A stretch of 64,000 nt of DNA from Anaerolineaceae bacterium. Lineage in GTDB: Bacteria > Chloroflexota > Anaerolineae > Aggregatilineales > Phototrophicaceae. A program made the position numbers and the translations under genes. Where the stretch lies: the NCBI GenBank assembly GCA_002699585.1, contig PABP01000036.1, forward strand, positions 126,333 through 190,332, written 5' to 3'. Positions 38,249-47,084 of this stretch are shown here, piece after piece; position 1 is the stretch's first letter; each line of letters starts with the position of its first letter. The notes under the pieces were generated by a model that was not told the origin of the DNA, searched no databases, and saw nothing but the letters and a program-made list of their open reading frames with translations.

Positions 38249-39058
38249 ATGAGAAAAATTTTTGCATTGGCGATGCTGGTATCTGTTCTGCTTATCGCTG
38301 TTGGCGTCAGCTTCGCGATTAACTATGGCGATCCTGATGGCGATGGTCATCCATATGTGGGTATTATGGTTGCGAAAGATGCCGGTGGCAACCCACTGTG
38401 GCGTTGCAGTGGCACAATGATCTCGCCGACCGTTTATTTGACAGCGGGACACTGTACAGAAGCTCCCGCTACCCAGGCTGAGATATGGTTCGAGTCAGAG
38501 ATTGTGGCTGGCTTAGGTTGGCCCTTTGGCGGTTCCACAAGTGTCTCAGGTAAAACAGAAACACACCCCAGCTATAACCCTGGCGCATTCTTCCTTTACG
38601 ATGTCGGTGTTGTCATCCTAGATGAGCCACTTTCACTGCCGACCTATGGAACTTTGCCAGAGCAAGGTATTCTTGATGGCCTGGCAACTGCGCGTGGCCA
38701 AAAGGATACAACTATCACCGCTGTCGGTTATGGTTTGCAGCGTGTTCGTAGCAACCCGGCTGGCCCTGACTTTACGCAATCTGACTTGCGCCGTGAAATT
38801 GCCGTGCTTAACCTGGTGAGCGTGCGCGGTACGGCGGGTATTCCGCGGGGGACATCGGTTCTGCTTTCCGGTAATGCCCATACAGGCGGCACCTGCTTCG
38901 GGGATTCCGGCGGTCCGCTGTTCCTGAATAGCACCAATACCATTGTTGCCGTGACCTCATTCGGCATCAACGGCAACTGTGCTGGTGTCGGCGGCGGTTA
39001 TCGCATCGATATGCCAGATGACCTGAATTGGATTAACAGCATTCTCGCCAACAACTAG
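38249..39058 (+). CDS. secreted trypsin-like serine protease (S1)
   Basis: A 269-residue protein with a signal peptide (MRKIFALAMLVSVLLIAVGV). The catalytic triad is present: His68 (YLTAGHC), Asp118 (LYDVGVVIL) and Ser220 (CFGDSGGPL). Cysteines flank the His and Ser sites as in chymotrypsin-fold enzymes. The maturation site is unclear; the mature chain may begin near INYGDPDGDG. It stands alone, with AGAGAGGGAA before the ATG. It probably degrades extracellular protein. Confidence 0.88.
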   Translation: MRKIFALAMLVSVLLIAVGVSFAINYGDPDGDGHPYVGIMVAKDAGGNPLWRCSGTMISPTVYLTAGHCTEAPATQAEIWFESEIVAGLGWPFGGSTSVSGKTETHPSYNPGAFFLYDVGVVILDEPLSLPTYGTLPEQGILDGLATARGQKDTTITAVGYGLQRVRSNPAGPDFTQSDLRREIAVLNLVSVRGTAGIPRGTSVLLSGNAHTGGTCFGDSGGPLFLNSTNTIVAVTSFGINGNCAGVGGGYRIDMPDDLNWINSILANN

Positions 39059-39793: not shown

Positions 39794-41272
39794 ATGAACA
39801 TCGAACTGCTGCACATCCACAAGCGCTTTGGTCCGGTACACGCTAACAACGACATCACCGTGAACTTCAATGAAGGCCGTATCATCGGCGTACTGGGGGA
39901 AAACGGCGCGGGGAAATCCACCCTGATGAAGATCCTCTCCGGCTATCAACCAGCCACCAGCGGCGAAATCCGCATTGATGGCCAGCCGATGACAGCCAAT
40001 GGTCCGCTGGCGGCGATTGCTAACGGCATCGGCATGTTGCAGCAGGACCCGCTCGACGTGGGCGCGTTCACGGTGCTGGAGAACTTCACCTATGGCCAGC
40101 CAGGTGGCATTTTCTTCCGCAAGAGCAAAAAATTCTATGAACAGCAGTTGGCCGAGTATGCGCAGCGCTTCGGCTTTGACCTGCCGCCGGATGTTCCCGC
40201 TGATAACCTCAGTATTGCTCAGCGCCAACAATTAGAGATGGTCCGTTTGCTGGCCCTGGGTGTGCGCACGCTCATCCTCGATGAGCCGACGACGGGCATC
40301 AGTGCAGAGCAAAAAGACGATCTGTTCGATGCGCTGCGGTCGCTGGCCCATAATGATGGCATGATCGTGCTGCTGGTCAGCCACAAGCTGGAAGATGTCA
40401 TCGCGCTGTGTGACGAAGTCATCGTGCTGCGCGCTGGCGAACTGGTCGGTGCGCGCGAGATGCCTGCCACCACGCAGGAACTGGTCGCGCTCATGTTCGG
40501 TGGCGAACTGCCGACGCCCGAACGCACATCGGCACCCATTGGCGATACGGTGCTAACACTCGATGATGTGCATCTGCGCGGTGAGCGCCTGGACATGCCC
40601 CATATTTCAGTCAAGGTGCGTCAGGGTGAGGTGGTCGGGCTGGCCGGGTTGGATGGTAGCGGCCAGGAATTGGTTATGCGCGCCTGTGCCGGACTGGAGC
40701 CGTGTCATGGCGGTCGCATTATGCTGAAAAACAGCGACATGACGGGCAAAGGCTACCGCGATTATTTGAAGCAGGATGTCATCTTTGGGGCGGCTGGCCG
40801 CATTGAAGAAGGTCTGGTCGCGGGGCTGACACTGACGGAGCATATGGCGCTGGTGATGAATAACGACCCGGTCATCAAGTGGAACGCCGCCAGGGAGCGC
40901 ATGACGAAACAAATCGACCATTACGCTATTCGGGGTCGTGAATCAGACAATATCGAACAGCTATCCGGTGGCAATCAGCAGCGCGTGTTGATGGCGCTCC
41001 TGCCGGATGCGCCTTCGCTGATGGTCTTAGAGCAGCCCACGCGCGGCCTGGATGTCGAAAGCGCCAATTGGATCTGGCAGCAACTTTTAGCGCGGCGTGA
41101 TAGTGGCACGGCCATTATTTTCAGCAGTGCGGAGTTAGAAGAACTGGTAACGTACAGCGACCGCTTGCTGGTGTTCTACGCGGGCCGCATCCATGAAGTG
41201 ACCGACGTAGCCAACGTCAGCATCGACGCCCTCGGCCATATGATCGGCGGTGAATTCGAGGCAGCGCACTAA
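39794..41272 (+). CDS. ABC transporter ATP-binding protein, two ABC domains
   Basis: About 492 residues with two nucleotide-binding domains, as in sugar/nucleoside importers (RbsA/NupO type). Domain 1 has GENGAGKST (Walker A), LSIAQRQQLEM (signature variant) and LILDEPTTG (Walker B). Domain 2 has the usual degenerate GLDGSGQEL, then LSGGNQQRVLMA and VLEQPTRGLD. The start MNIELLHIHKRFG at 39794 is preferred over the longer frame to 39656. It probably energises uptake of the ligand bound by the BMP protein at 36730. No permease genes follow, which is unusual for this class. Confidence 0.87.
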   Translation: MNIELLHIHKRFGPVHANNDITVNFNEGRIIGVLGENGAGKSTLMKILSGYQPATSGEIRIDGQPMTANGPLAAIANGIGMLQQDPLDVGAFTVLENFTYGQPGGIFFRKSKKFYEQQLAEYAQRFGFDLPPDVPADNLSIAQRQQLEMVRLLALGVRTLILDEPTTGISAEQKDDLFDALRSLAHNDGMIVLLVSHKLEDVIALCDEVIVLRAGELVGAREMPATTQELVALMFGGELPTPERTSAPIGDTVLTLDDVHLRGERLDMPHISVKVRQGEVVGLAGLDGSGQELVMRACAGLEPCHGGRIMLKNSDMTGKGYRDYLKQDVIFGAAGRIEEGLVAGLTLTEHMALVMNNDPVIKWNAARERMTKQIDHYAIRGRESDNIEQLSGGNQQRVLMALLPDAPSLMVLEQPTRGLDVESANWIWQQLLARRDSGTAIIFSSAELEELVTYSDRLLVFYAGRIHEVTDVANVSIDALGHMIGGEFEAAH

Positions 41273-41703
41273 CGGACTGACGATGGCTGGTAGCGGTCCA
41301 TTTGCTTACGGCTCCAGCGGATGGTCATCAGCATGAAGGCCGCTGATAAAAATATCGAGAACCCATTGAGTAGGGGGTTGGTGCCTTGGCAGCCTGTGAC
41401 GGTGCAACTCAGCATCAATAGCCACCAGAATACCCACAAAAAGGCGATGGCTGCGGTCATAGCGCCTTTCCAGAAGACCATCCAGCGCGTCACTTTTTTG
41501 ATGCGCGTATCGTAAGATTTGCTGAGAAGCGAAGGCAGCAAGGCAAGCGGCCTCGGCAGCCGATTCAACATGTCTTTTATGATCCGGGGGGATTGTTTTG
41601 TCTGACGCGCAAAGCGCAAAAACCTAAACACCAGCATGTCAGCAGCAGTCACAATCGTCCAGAAGATCAGCATCCCCGGAGGGCCAACCTCAAATAGGCT
41701 CAT
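41269..41703 (-). CDS. hypothetical membrane protein
   Basis: A 144-residue protein with about three helices: one at the N-terminus (PPGMLIFWTIVTAADMLVF, part), one at about residues 78-100, and one near the C-terminus. A basic stretch links the first and second. It is the last gene of the - strand cluster and does not share the C-terminal domain of the five genes before it. The 3' end overlaps the convergent ABC gene by 4 bases. Family not recognised. Confidence 0.6.
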   Translation of the reverse strand: MSLFEVGPPGMLIFWTIVTAADMLVFRFLRFARQTKQSPRIIKDMLNRLPRPLALLPSLLSKSYDTRIKKVTRWMVFWKGAMTAAIAFLWVFWWLLMLSCTVTGCQGTNPLLNGFSIFLSAAFMLMTIRWSRKQMDRYQPSSVR

Positions 41704-41707
41704 AAAA

Positions 41708-42082
41708 TCAGCGCAAATTCACTAACTCACCATCATCGCTGACGGCATAACGACCATTGGAGCTATTATAATCCACATCGCCCAGACGCATGCGTAATTC
41801 TTCGATTTGCTCATCGCTGAGATTATCGAGCATGGCATCCAGATTTTGCCGTTTGCGCTTATCGCGCTTGCTTGAAAACGACTTTGAGCGTGACTCTGCC
41901 GAAATGCGCGCAGGTTCAGAATCCACCACCCACATAAAGGCCATGATCGCCAGCAGCGGGATCATCAGTACCAGGGCCAGCACAATCGCCAGTCCACCAA
42001 TCTGCGTCATGGATATGCCAATTAACCCCAGTAGGAGTGTCCACATAAAGGCCGTGACCAGCGCTTTTACTATTGTCCGCAT
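41708..42082 (-). CDS. tandem small membrane protein, copy 5 (most divergent)
   Basis: A 124-residue member of a five-gene tandem family: two N-terminal helices (about 1-25 and 28-52), a charged linker and a conserved C-terminal domain. Here the domain reads KRKRQNLDAMLDNLSDEQIEELRMRL, shortened to the first part, and ends SDDGELVNLR. It lacks the FEDEV...MLGDD block seen in the other copies (replaced by NSSNGRYAVSDD), so it has drifted furthest. AGGGG precedes the ATG. Function is unknown. Confidence 0.65.
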   Translation of the reverse strand: MRTIVKALVTAFMWTLLLGLIGISMTQIGGLAIVLALVLMIPLLAIMAFMWVVDSEPARISAESRSKSFSSKRDKRKRQNLDAMLDNLSDEQIEELRMRLGDVDYNSSNGRYAVSDDGELVNLR

Positions 42083-42114
42083 CTCTTATCCCCTTGAAAA
42101 ACTTGCTATCGGAA

Positions 42115-42480
42115 CTAACGCTTTGTCAACAACTCACCGTCATCACCGAGCATGTATAGCACCTCATCTTCAAAATTTGGGTCGCTCAACCGTGTTTTGA
42201 GCGCCGCCAACTGTTCGTCACTCAAGTCGCGCAGGATGGCGTCGAGGCGATCCCGTTTGCGCTTTTCTAAGCTATCTGCCTGATTAGATACTTGACTGGA
42301 ATTAGCTTGCTTTTCAGTGCCGTGGAAGGCTTCCCACATGGCCAGATTGATGAGAATAAGCGGTATCATCAAAACGCCCGCCATCAAAATAACCCAGGCG
42401 CCTAAATCGAGCGTCTGGCCCAGGAAACCCAGGCTGGCCAGGTAGACCATCCACATGATTAACGTCGCTAAAGCTTTCAT
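42115..42480 (-). CDS. tandem small membrane protein, copy 4
   Basis: A 121-residue member of the tandem family. Two hydrophobic helices with the middle LGAWVILMAGVLMIPL are followed by a Gln/Ser/Asn-rich linker and the family domain EKRKRDRLDAILRDLSDEQL, then ALKTRLSDPNFEDEV and MLGDDGELLTKR. AGGA lies upstream of the ATG with a slightly long spacer. The DNA at its 3' end is closely similar to that of copies 2, 3 and 1 over about 50 bases. Function is unknown. Confidence 0.65.
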   Translation of the reverse strand: MKALATLIMWMVYLASLGFLGQTLDLGAWVILMAGVLMIPLILINLAMWEAFHGTEKQANSSQVSNQADSLEKRKRDRLDAILRDLSDEQLAALKTRLSDPNFEDEVLYMLGDDGELLTKR

Positions 42481-42514
42481 TCAACAATTGTCCTCGTACA
42501 GGCATTAGTCAGCA

Positions 42515-42883
42515 CTAAGCCTGGTCCGTGATCAGTTCGCCATCATCGCCGAGCATGTAGCGCACCTCATCTTCAAAATCCGGCTCTGTCAGGCGTAGCT
42601 TGAGCGCCATAAGCTGCTCGTCGCTGAGGTCACGCAAAATGGCATCCAGGCGGTCTCGTTTGCGTTTTTCCGTATCTTGGTTTGTTTTTTCAGCTTCCGC
42701 GCGTGTCTTGGTCTGAATATAGGACTCGCTCCACATGCTGACTGTGACCACCATCAACGGGAGTACCAGAATCAGCGCCAGGGCAATCACACCACCGCCC
42801 AGATTAAACCACTCGCCAAAGAAAAACACCGTAGCCAGATAAGCAAGCCACAACAATAAGGTGATCATCCACCGATTATTCAT
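42515..42883 (-). CDS. tandem small membrane protein, copy 3
   Basis: A 122-residue member of the tandem family with helices around LLLWLAYLATVFFFGEWFNLG (part) and VIALALILVLPLMVVTVSMW, a linker rich in Lys/Glu/Ala, and the domain EKRKRDRLDAILRDLSDEQL followed by MALKLRLTEPDFEDEV and MLGDDGELITDQA. GAGGAAG five bases before the ATG is a strong ribosome binding site. The membrane orientation is probably N-in, placing the charged domain in the cytoplasm. Function is unknown. Confidence 0.68.
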   Translation of the reverse strand: MNNRWMITLLLWLAYLATVFFFGEWFNLGGGVIALALILVLPLMVVTVSMWSESYIQTKTRAEAEKTNQDTEKRKRDRLDAILRDLSDEQLMALKLRLTEPDFEDEVRYMLGDDGELITDQA

Positions 42884-42904
42884 GAGTCTTCCTCGATTAT
42901 TTTG

Positions 42905-43270
42905 TTATTGCCGGGGTGCGACGAGTTCGCCGTCGTCACCGAGCATGTAGAGCACTTCGTCTTCAAAGTCAGGTTCGCTTAAGCGTTGTTTGAGCGCGGC
43001 CAATTGTTCATCACTGAGTTCACGCAGGATGGCATCCAGACGGTCGCGCTTGCGCTTTTCGAGCAGGTCGCCTGATGTTTCGCTCTCTGCTTGTTTCTCT
43101 GCTGCGGATTTGTTTTCCCACATGGTGACAGTCATGGCAATCACGGGCAGGGCCAGCACGAAGGCCAGGGCGATCACGCCGCCGCCCAGGTCAAAGGATT
43201 GCCCCAAAAGCAGCAACCCTATCAGATACCCCATCCAGATCAAAACAGATGCAATCGACCTTGCTACCAT
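42905..43270 (-). CDS. tandem small membrane protein, copy 2
   Basis: A 121-residue member of the tandem family and the closest relative of copy 3: both share GQ/EW-x-F-x-LGGGVIALA and the same two-helix layout. Its C-terminal domain reads EKRKRDRLDAILRELSDEQL, then AALKQRLSEPDFEDEV and MLGDDGELVAPRQ. GGGGAAA precedes the ATG. Spacing to the next copy is 21 bases, so all copies are probably on one transcript. Function is unknown. Confidence 0.68.
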   Translation of the reverse strand: MVARSIASVLIWMGYLIGLLLLGQSFDLGGGVIALAFVLALPVIAMTVTMWENKSAAEKQAESETSGDLLEKRKRDRLDAILRELSDEQLAALKQRLSEPDFEDEVLYMLGDDGELVAPRQ

Positions 43271-43294
43271 ACTAGTTTCCCCAATGTAATATCT

Positions 43295-43687
43295 TTAGCG
43301 CTGGCCAGTGATCAGTTCGCCATCATCGCCCAGCATGACGCGCAAATCATCCTCAAAATCAGGATCGGTCAGCCGAGAGCGCAGCGCCCGGAGCTGCTCA
43401 TCGCTCATATTACGTAGCACAGAATCCAGCATATCGCGTTTGCGCTTTTCTTCCTCAGCCAGTTGGCCCTGCGTGGCTTTCGTCTCTTTAACGCCCTGTC
43501 CCCAATCCCAGATGAAGCCATTGATGACGACCAGCATACCCCCCATCAGGAACAAGATGGGGATCACTTCCGCACCCATTTCTGCACCCAGTACGATGGT
43601 TACGGCAATAAGGGACCCCCAGGTCAGGAAGGTAAACAGCAGCTTGAGGGACAGTGCAAAATTCGCATTTTTCGATTGCATACTCAT
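43295..43687 (-). CDS. tandem small membrane protein, copy 1
   Basis: About 130 residues; first gene of the array. The frame is open to 43720, but the ATG at 43687 follows a GGAGTAAG that fits a ribosome binding site. The helices are preceded by a short polar N-terminus absent from other copies, and the linker GQGVKETKATQGQLAEEE is followed by the family domain EKRKRDMLDSVLRNMSDEQL, RALRSRLTDPDFEDDL and MLGDDGELITGQR. The cluster is divergent from the kinase-response regulator gene at 43981. Confidence 0.66.
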   Translation of the reverse strand: MSMQSKNANFALSLKLLFTFLTWGSLIAVTIVLGAEMGAEVIPILFLMGGMLVVINGFIWDWGQGVKETKATQGQLAEEEKRKRDMLDSVLRNMSDEQLRALRSRLTDPDFEDDLRVMLGDDGELITGQR

Positions 43688-43980
43688 CTTACTCCGATAG
43701 AAAGTTTCTGACATCTGCAAGGTGACATGTGTGTCGCAAGACAGGCATCATCCCCACAGAAATACACAAGAACAGGCTACTTTATTTTACGTGTTTGATC
43801 GGCCTGGGTTGCAAAGCTGGCGAGTGTGGCCACTAAATATGCACACATGTATCGGTTGAACTTTGCGCCTTCAAAGGTTTATGCAAAACTTATGGTGAAT
43901 AATTAATAAATACGTGTCAATGTGAGTGTGGGCTGAAGTTTATGGATATGGTATGCTTGTCCGTGTCAAATGGGGCATGA

Positions 43981-45561
43981 ATGACCTCTCAGTTGGGGCG
44001 TATGATCGGCAAAAAGCTCAACCAACGTTATGAGATCGTAGCACATATCGGTGAAGGCGCGACGTCTGTCGTGTACCTGGGCCGCGATACGCTCCTGGGT
44101 CGGGATGTAGCGATCAAGGTATTGCTACCGCACGTCAAGGATGCGACGCGAACCCGTTTCTTCCAAGAAGCCAATTCGGCGGCACAGCTCAACCATCCCA
44201 ATATCATGGCACTCTATGATCGCGGCAAAGACTTGGACCGTGATTACTTGGTGGTTGAATACATCGACGGTGATTCGTTGGCAGCCTACGTACCCTCCGT
44301 GCCAGAATTGGTCGTGGCGCTAGGTGCACAGATCGCACGAGCACTGTATTACGCCCACGAGCGTGAAATCATTCACCGCGACATCAAACCCGCCAACATC
44401 AAAGTGACACCCCACGGCCAGGTCAAAATCATGGACCTGGGCCTGGCATTACCGCGTGAAGCCAAGCGCGTCACCGCACCCGGTATGGTGATCGGTACGC
44501 CAGCCTATATTTCACCAGAACAAGCGCAGGGGCATGAACTCGACCACCGTACCGACATCTATTCGCTGGGCATCGTGCTCTATGAAATGGTAACGGGTCA
44601 ACTTCCGTTTAATGCCGATGATATTACCGCGCTGCTTTTACAACACGTTCAGCAGCCAGCGCCGCCACCGCGCCTGATTATGCCCACGATCCCCCCGGCG
44701 CTAGAGCATGTCATCTTAAAGACGTTGGAAAAACGGCGAGATCGTCGCTTCCAGTCAGCGGATTTGCTGGCTGAGGCGTTGGAATCCACATTGCCTTCAG
44801 GCTTTAGCAGCGGGGATGATGCGACCATCGCCAGCCCACGTGACCTCACCTCGACCTCGACCCGGCAAACGGGCCAATTGGTCGATTCGCAGGCGTCGCG
44901 CCGCCTGATTAAGGTGGTCATGGCCGATGACCATGTGCTGCTGCGTCGGGCGCTGGCAGGCTATCTGGAAACGCAAGATGATTTCCTGGTACTGGCTGAA
45001 GCCAGCGATGGCGAGCAAGCCCTTCTACGTACGATGGAATTACAGCCCGATATTCTGCTGCTGGACCTCAACATGCCCGGTAAATCCGGCCTGGATGTGC
45101 TGCCAGATATTCGTAAAAATGCGCCGGATGTCAAAGTACTGGTGCTGACAGGCCGCGACGACGATATTTACATCATGCGAGCTTTACGGGCCGGGGCACA
45201 CGGCTACCTGCTCAAGAGCACGGATGAAAGCAAACTGCTGGATGCCATCCGCAAGGTGCTTGACGATGAAATCGTGCTGGGGCGGGGCATCGCTGGCAAA
45301 ATCGTCAGCGGCGTCCTCAATGAGAGCAATGCCCTCACGGAACGCGAAGGCGCGGCGCTGCTGCACATCGCGGCGGGGTACGAGGATGAGCAAATTCGGG
45401 AGCGGCTCAACATCAGCATGACTGAGATGATCGAGATGATGGCCCAGATCATGAAGAAGCTGGATGTGCGTGACCGCAATACGGCGGCCCTGCGCGCCCT
45501 GCGCGATGGCCATATTGCCCTCGATGACTTGCATGAATTGCGCCCGCCACAGTCTAACTAA
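43981..45561 (+). CDS. Ser/Thr kinase fused to NarL-type response regulator
   Basis: A 526-residue protein with an unusual order of domains. Residues ~17-275 form a complete Hanks-type kinase: IGEGATSVVYLG loop, Lys46 (VAIKVLL), Asp133 (HRDIKPAN), Asp152 (MDLGLA) and YISPEQ. A Ser/Thr-rich linker of ~35 residues follows. Residues ~310-425 are a receiver domain with Asp316/Asp317, phosphoacceptor Asp362 (LLLDLNMPGKSG), Thr390 and Lys412. Residues ~450-510 are a LuxR-like HTH (ALTEREGAALLHIAAG... KLDVRDRNTAAL). No membrane helix is seen. It probably joins two signalling systems in one DNA-binding protein. Confidence 0.85.
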   Translation: MTSQLGRMIGKKLNQRYEIVAHIGEGATSVVYLGRDTLLGRDVAIKVLLPHVKDATRTRFFQEANSAAQLNHPNIMALYDRGKDLDRDYLVVEYIDGDSLAAYVPSVPELVVALGAQIARALYYAHEREIIHRDIKPANIKVTPHGQVKIMDLGLALPREAKRVTAPGMVIGTPAYISPEQAQGHELDHRTDIYSLGIVLYEMVTGQLPFNADDITALLLQHVQQPAPPPRLIMPTIPPALEHVILKTLEKRRDRRFQSADLLAEALESTLPSGFSSGDDATIASPRDLTSTSTRQTGQLVDSQASRRLIKVVMADDHVLLRRALAGYLETQDDFLVLAEASDGEQALLRTMELQPDILLLDLNMPGKSGLDVLPDIRKNAPDVKVLVLTGRDDDIYIMRALRAGAHGYLLKSTDESKLLDAIRKVLDDEIVLGRGIAGKIVSGVLNESNALTEREGAALLHIAAGYEDEQIRERLNISMTEMIEMMAQIMKKLDVRDRNTAALRALRDGHIALDDLHELRPPQSN

Positions 45562-46341: not shown

Positions 46342-46365
46342 TCCACACCGGATTGCACAAAAAAG

Positions 46366-46390
46366 AACGCCCCTGTATTGGGGCGTTTTT
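46366..46390 (+). terminator. intrinsic terminator of rpsD
   Basis: An 8-bp stem, AACGCCCC / GGGGCGTT, loop TGTATT, followed by Ts and preceded by an A-run, lying 24 bases after the rpsD stop. Confidence 0.9.
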
Positions 46391-46430
46391 GATTTATGCT
46401 ATACTTGTGCCAGTTGTTAGCAGGAGCATC

Positions 46431-46664
46431 ATGATGGTCGAACGTGCATTGGCAGAGATGACAGAATCAGAACTGCGAGCCATGATAAACGAGGCAATTG
46501 ATAAGCGACTCTCCAAGCAAGTGAACTTCGCTTTGCCAAGTAACTACGATGCAGAGAAAGACCCTTTTTCTGCAGGTTTATTCGAGGGGCCATCTGACTT
46601 ATCAGTGCGCACAAAGGATATTTTGCGCAAAGATTTTCCTGATAATCTCCGTAAAGGCGGGTAG
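46431..46664 (+). CDS. putative antitoxin of a PIN-type toxin-antitoxin pair
   Basis: A 77-residue acidic/basic protein starting MMVERALAEMTESELRAMIN, with one or two helices in the middle and DILRKDFPDNLRKGG at the end. CAGGAGC precedes the ATG. The stop codon directly abuts the start of the PIN-domain gene, the normal antitoxin-toxin order. No DNA-binding fold is recognised with confidence, so the antitoxin label rests on size, partner and position. An alternative is an unrelated small regulator. Confidence 0.65.
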   Translation: MMVERALAEMTESELRAMINEAIDKRLSKQVNFALPSNYDAEKDPFSAGLFEGPSDLSVRTKDILRKDFPDNLRKGG

Positions 46665-47084
46665 ATGGCAGCCGCAATAGTAGACACCAGCTTTATCGTT
46701 GCGATGTTCAACAAAAATGATAAGTACTATCAAGCTTGTCAGGATGCTTACCATAAACAGGCTCAGGTAATATTTCTGTTGCAGCCCGCTCTCTCTGAAA
46801 TTGCTTATATGCTCCGGCGTTATAGTCCATACAATACGGTTATTACATTCTTCAATGGCATTTCTCAATCCAAGTTTCAGCTTATTGAAGTAAATGAATC
46901 CGACCTGCTCCGCGCGGCTGCGATCATGGGGCAATATGCGGATGCTGAACTCGATTTCGTCGATGCGGCGATTGTGGCTGTGGCCGAGCGTTTGTCTATT
47001 CAAGACATTTTCACACTCGACCAACGTGATTTTAGCATCATCCGTCCAAAGCACTGCGACTACTTCAGACTCACCCCCGCATAA
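46665..47084 (+). CDS. PIN-domain protein, VapC-like toxin
   Basis: A 139-residue PIN domain. The acidic residues expected at the active site are Asp7 (AIVDTSFIVAMF), Glu45 (LSEIAYML), Asp97 or Asp100 (LDFVDAAIVAVAE) and Asp119/Asp122 (FTLDQRDFSII). VapC proteins are Mg-dependent RNases that cleave tRNA or rRNA when freed from the antitoxin. The start ATG follows the upstream stop with no gap. The gene is AT-richer than rpsD and Ada around it, in line with mobility of such modules. Confidence 0.82.
   Translation: MAAAIVDTSFIVAMFNKNDKYYQACQDAYHKQAQVIFLLQPALSEIAYMLRRYSPYNTVITFFNGISQSKFQLIEVNESDLLRAAAIMGQYADAELDFVDAAIVAVAERLSIQDIFTLDQRDFSIIRPKHCDYFRLTPA

Follow-up and report, generated by a model that had tools for sequence, protein, structure and literature searches.

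What role might be served by five small membrane proteins that are encoded one directly after another, agree in a short C-terminal domain and yet differ in their membrane-spanning halves? The question is raised by a locus in a 64,000-nucleotide stretch, called here the window, from the 6.7-Mb genome of an Anaerolineaceae bacterium. The features considered are listed below from the kinase through the array.

43981..45561, plus strand: protein with Ser/Thr kinase, receiver and LuxR-type HTH, 526 aa; divergent from the array, a candidate partner
43688..43980, no strand: intergenic region from kinase to array; holds a single promoter-like match
43295..43687, minus strand: copy 1, 130 aa; two TM helices and C-terminal domain; counterpart of the first copy of the sister species
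42905..43270, minus strand: copy 2, 121 aa; AlphaFold helices at 2-26, 31-84 (TM2 plus stalk), 87-97 and 102-107
42515..42883, minus strand: copy 3, 122 aa
42115..42480, minus strand: copy 4, 121 aa; predicted architecture as in copy 2
41708..42082, minus strand: copy 5, 124 aa; C-terminal domain diverged
41269..41703, minus strand: hydrophobic ORF outside the family, 144 aa; begins 4 bases past copy 5

The array and its surroundings

A first-pass annotation had described five consecutive minus-strand paralogous genes of about 121-130 residues, and its coordinates were right, the genes comprising 130, 121, 122, 121 and 124 codons and being separated by gaps of 21-34 bases. It had also given each gene its own ribosome-binding site, and a purine-rich Shine-Dalgarno-like stretch can indeed be seen by eye upstream of the ATG in all five. 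Copies 1-4 carry the C-terminal domain EKRKRDxLDxxLRxxSDEQLxxLxxRL and copy 5 a diverged version of it, while DDGEL occurs close to the C-terminal end in every copy. The extension that had been ascribed to copy 1 is confined to the N terminus.

The 144-aa ORF could possibly be co-transcribed with the array. It has no Pfam match, and among 20 relatives it is not kept together with the array, its one weak match (E 4.5e-4) lying well away from the array of the sister species. A promoter scan of 41200-44100 returned one promoter-like match, on the plus strand within the kinase-array intergenic region, which is not above the 2.6 matches expected by chance. Elsewhere in the window, a 103-aa ORF without a Pfam match is followed by a PIN-domain protein (46353-47084, plus strand), resembling a VapBC-type toxin-antitoxin pair, and a serine protease of the Trypsin family, whose N terminus looks signal-like by eye, lies at 38249-39058 (plus strand).

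Distribution of the family

When copy 2 was used as a query, the other four copies were recovered at E-values from 6.5e-16 to 9.2e-40, far past chance, and matches were found in 11 of 41 genomes, counting the window's own. At E up to 1e-4, a 26-member profile, built with the five window copies included (which it recovers), places the family in 85 of the 154 genomes analysed from the window's order within the Anaerolineae. Absence of the domain from relatives, which the first-pass annotation had named among the outcomes that would count against it, is thus not what was found. Wider samples of the class and phylum gave 21 of 396 and 2 of 301 genomes, every match falling in the window's own order, at a stricter threshold (E up to 1e-6) and with a limit on scored candidates, both of which may conceal distant members.

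The family also recurs in tandem. Among 74 fetched loci, picked among the listed matches and in several cases sharing a genus or genome, one member was present in 37, two in 22, three in 10, four in 3, five in 1 and six in 1, all of these counts being lower bounds owing to contig ends; at least two members therefore occur in 37 of the 74. The window's five copies are not the record, which belongs to a six-copy array (genome G050, locus L195, 6632-9110). All 60 neighbouring pairs of members lie on one strand, with a gap of no more than 150 bases in 58 and a median of 21, and because array-mates are this close and share a strand they are probably co-transcribed.

Variation occurs around the common plan. 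By eye, the six members of L195 fall into two domain types, copies 1-2 having one C-terminal version and copies 3-6 another. Some members have a long inter-helix stretch, as in a 217-aa protein of G012, and in genus g12 this stretch is seen in the last member of arrays L028, L140, L142, L144, L145 and L146 (in L135 and L136 by length only). Paired members of 207-231 aa, at L174 (7990-9353) and L177 (7375-8740), have a four-helical look with one C-terminal domain each and occur in both genomes of their genus; four helices are predicted in 5 of 134 members overall. In G015, a stop interrupts one copy.

Library and literature searches

The first-pass annotation had recognised no named family and considered the proteins undescribed. 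None of the five window proteins has a Pfam match over the cut-off, and 26 members, compared one by one with Pfam, NCBIfam, PHROGs and PADLOC and also with sequences of the PDB, gave scattered weak matches only. The commonest weak match was to SieB (9 of 26 members, best E 0.0028), and the lowest E-value among the matches listed belonged to NCBIfam Rv0361_Cterm (3 of 26, best E 1.6e-5). SLATT_1 was matched weakly by 2 of 26 members (best E 7.7e-4) and Saf_2TM by 1 of 26, while each PHROG spanin or holin family was matched by at most 3 of 26. Of 39 PHROG families, the 25 shown include three named holin (2, 1 and 1 of 26 members, best E 5.3e-4), which is no consistent holin match, and the ten PADLOC families found have one member each. 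Foldseek with the low-confidence model of copy 2 returned nothing at E up to 0.001. A known family was set aside on these scattered profile matches and the lack of a fold match at that threshold, and searches of the literature on Anaerolineae or Chloroflexota found no such family. The results support a family that is real and, as far as libraries and literature searches reach, undescribed. As defined here, its members match the profile at E up to 1e-4, have two TM helices and carry KxK[RHQ]; all five window copies show the first two features, and the motif K.K[RHQ] is present in 120 of the 134 members.

Membrane architecture and topology

Two TM helices are predicted in 124 of 134 members, including all five window copies, as had been claimed for the latter, in which a variable linker leads on to the C-terminal domain. 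Among 95 two-TM members, Lys and Arg make up 156 of 979 residues (16%) in the N-side flank and 505 of 2565 (20%) in the C-side flank versus 19 of 1171 (1.6%) in the loop, and the inter-helix loop of all five window copies is free of both residues. Such a charge pattern amounts to a strong positive-inside bias and suggests hairpins with both termini in the cytosol. Each array protein would then form a two-helix hairpin of N-in/C-in topology, with its second helix running on as a cytosolic stalk rich in Lys, Arg and Glu and ending in a short, putatively helical domain made up of KxKR, RLxxLL, an acidic turn (LS/DDE) and ELxxLRxRL.

Structure prediction of single copies, another of the proposed checks, was run for copies 2 and 4. 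Both AlphaFold models contain TM1, a single helix from TM2 through the stalk to residue 84-85, and then short helices. This agreement on the helices comes at low confidence (mean pLDDT 69, pTM 0.30-0.31, and pLDDT of about 58-64 at the TM2-stalk junction), and the two models rest on the same eight sequences and hence are not independent tests. With that qualification, they suggest that the second helix extends into a cytosolic stalk. Helical moments of three typed stretches showed no clear excess over shuffles (fractions 0.11, 0.58 and 0.16).

Conservation and evolution of the copies

Compared in pairs, the five copies are 13-43% identical over the membrane and linker part and 48-86% identical over the domain. 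In the domain codons of copies 2-4, third positions differ at 50-54% and second positions, the most conserved, at 4-14%. Given this high third-position and low second-position divergence, the likeness of copies 2-4 is attributable to purifying selection and not to recent duplication. The first-pass annotation was thus borne out in reading selection on the cytoplasmic domain and in calling copies 2-4 much alike there; judged by their codons, the domain is under purifying selection and the copies are not recent.

Comparison with the sister species (G001, same genus), which has a three-gene array, adds to this picture. Copy 1 is nearest to the first copy there (48% identity in the membrane part, 78% in the domain). 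Copy 5, which had been called degenerate, has diverged in its domain, while its membrane part is still nearest to the last copy of the sister species (49%, versus 21% and 31% to the other two). Since the first and last copies have counterparts, it is the middle that differs, with three copies in the window and one in the sister species, an arrangement that would fit an expansion in the former or a loss in the latter equally well.

Across the family, array-mates have a domain version in common more than they do a membrane part. In a set restricted to a single locus from each genus (71 members, 34 genera), 57 members belong to arrays. The closest relative was an array-mate for 31 of these 57 when domains were compared and for 17 when membrane parts were, with about 1.9 expected by chance. 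Within arrays, four-fold sites are alike at 623 of 1086 positions in the domain versus 342 of 929 in the membrane part. Once well-aligned sites only are compared, the within-array excess over between-genera values is similar in both parts (0.50 vs 0.36 in the membrane part, 0.64 vs 0.51 in the domain), and gene conversion specific to the domain, though possible, is accordingly not demonstrated. The domain likeness of array-mates may reflect either conversion or shared constraint.

The divergent kinase and other neighbours

The divergent gene at 43981-45561 encodes Pkinase (161 bits), Response_reg (96 bits) and GerE (25.5 bits) domains and had been put forward as a partner of the array. A kinase of this type was found in 45 of 61 genomes, with a single match each at E up to 1e-80 (6 of the 45 partial), and in 14 of 298 class-sample genomes, solely of the window's order at the threshold used. 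Of the 45 loci, 43 were fetched, and 41 were informative in having more than 350 bases upstream. An array adjoins the kinase in 4 of these 41 (the window, G001, G042 and G015, representing three genera). In a quick tree of the 41 kinases, the four array-adjoining proteins fall within one 8-row clade (SH-aLRT 100), of whose other four rows three are without an array and one, G006, is truncated at the end of its contig. By eye, the gene on the kinase's other side looks alike in the window and the sister species and different in G042 and G015. A LuxR-type response regulator (L176, 7666-8310, minus strand) lies at the far side of the G015 array.

By genus, kinase and family co-occur (25 with both, 10 with neither, 3 with the kinase only and 3 with the family only; p 5e-5), a result that is confounded because shared descent may explain it; within the window's taxonomic family (37 genomes) the corresponding counts, 25/4/5/3, are not significant (p 0.16). 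In addition, 5 of 61 genomes have the family without a kinase match, and most fetched family loci sit away from the kinase, beside other genes. The evidence for the proposed partnership is weak, adjacency being seen in three genera of one clade; for that one clade, a kinase link is plausible.

Neighbour genes were clustered at 54 loci, and one representative was profiled for each of the cluster types named next. In the clusters printed, no gene adjoins all arrays and the neighbours are clade-specific. In 8 genomes a VanW plus peptidoglycan-binding type is encoded on the same strand, 44-382 bases upstream, with a MurJ type further upstream in 5 of them. A DUF4013-type membrane protein occurs near the family in 8 genomes (2-77 bases upstream in six), a SIS type lies downstream in 4, and in 3 genomes from a single genus a GAF histidine kinase type is found upstream at a distance of 75-78 bases. 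A DM13-domain protein (L066, 8860-9612, minus strand) adjoins an array in genus g6, and a similar-looking neighbour occurs in L175. A conserved partner gene was considered and rejected on these clade-specific contexts, together with the 144-aa ORF that is not kept with the array and the kinase result within the taxonomic family.

Proposed function and alternatives

The reading preferred here, held at a probability of roughly 0.4, is that the five array proteins belong to a lineage-specific family and act as membrane-anchored adaptors or hetero-oligomers whose cytosolic domains share a partner. Array-mates would have one cytosolic domain version in common and different membrane halves, so the likely mode of action would be hetero-oligomerisation by way of this domain or the docking of one shared cytosolic partner, and the diverged hairpins would provide different membrane neighbours or inputs. 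Support for an adaptor comes from the two-TM plan with its Lys/Arg flank bias, the helices on which both AlphaFold models agree, the constraint on the domain, the array-specific domain versions and the one-strand arrangement of neighbouring members. Against it stand the lack of a universal partner gene in the contexts above, the low pTM, the Foldseek result and helical moments near those of shuffles. Of course, hetero-oligomers cannot be general, since 37 of the 74 fetched loci hold a single member, some of them cut by contig ends.

Several other explanations have to be weighed. The array could serve the kinase-response regulator as its membrane arm, with cytosolic domains that report on the membrane state and are bound or phosphorylated by the soluble kinase. 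Such a link would account for the divergent arrangement within a single well-supported clade, for the genus-level co-occurrence and for the restriction of both proteins to one order in class samples. It is nonetheless unlikely, in that adjacency is rare and is absent from three of the eight clade rows, the association is not significant within the taxonomic family, some genomes have the family alone, and the Ser of LSDEQ is replaced by Asp or Asn in many members, which argues against a conserved phosphosite there. To a like degree it is doubtful that the proteins are accessories of cell-envelope assembly or stress response: the VanW/peptidoglycan-binding, MurJ and DUF4013 types are suggestive neighbours, but they are specific to particular clades, namely the genera g12 and g5 and the taxonomic family f3, and the window's own array has none of them beside it.

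Retention by drift of lineage-specific duplicates with no specific role would suit the patchy occurrence in one order, the diverged domain of copy 5 and the stop in G015. It is improbable, given the strong amino-acid conservation of the domain despite highly diverged third codon positions, and given sister-species counterparts of the first and last copies. The faintest of the candidates makes the proteins pore-forming effectors or holin-like proteins (SLATT-like, for superinfection exclusion or lysis). Their two-TM architecture and the weak matches to SieB, SLATT_1, Saf_2TM, spanins and holins are what recommends this idea, against which can be set the five window proteins without a SLATT match at E up to 1, the single-member PADLOC matches, several loci adjoining MurJ-, FUR- or SIS-type genes, and a constraint that falls on the cytosolic domain rather than the membrane part.

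Returning to the adaptor or hetero-oligomer reading, it is conceivable, if rather a long shot, that the array forms an order-specific combinatorial membrane platform, in which paralogous hairpins with diversified membrane parts assemble via a cytosolic domain particular to the array and which, in one clade, is wired to the order-specific Ser/Thr kinase-response regulator. If true, platform and kinase would make up a previously undescribed type of membrane-sensing pathway. Moreover, if array-mates form mixed oligomers, they would provide a simple example from nature of a single cytosolic module shared by proteins with diversified membrane parts. In any event, the family is a good target for annotation, being present in over half of the order's sampled genomes, often in tandem, with no clear entry in the family libraries. 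Phototrophicus methaneseepsis, which is reported as a pure culture (PMC8941918), very probably has the three-gene version, and function should thus be accessible to proteomics and pull-down.

Comparison with known systems

Among proteins with two TM helices, KcsA-type channels gave the family's best PDB sequence-profile match (E 0.005, profile positions 15-90, chain 74-163). KcsA-like potassium channels have the selectivity filter TVGYG or a near variant; a filter-like T[VIL]G[YFLW]G occurs in 0 of 134 members, and the predicted inter-helix loops in the window, at 4-8 residues, leave no space for a pore helix. The SLATT and 2TM effector domains (PF18181 and PF18303) likewise have two TM helices, but the weak matches to them, in just 2 and 1 of 26 members, do not extend to any of the five window proteins for SLATT_1 (PF18181). 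SLATT_1 systems typically have a nucleotide-signal synthase or SLOG gene as a neighbour, and none of these, nor any phage protein, was among the eight profiled neighbours of family loci.

The SHOCT domain (PF09851) resembles the array's domain in being short and C-terminal and is, according to its published description, widespread and of open function (PMC3581485). It differs in sequence, since a match at E up to 1 was found in 1 of 26 members (17.8 bits against the Pfam gathering cut-off of 27, over 18 of 28 positions) and in none of the five window proteins. Finally, bacterial hybrids of Ser/Thr kinase, receiver and LuxR-type domains offer a likeness to the divergent neighbour gene and not to the array itself.
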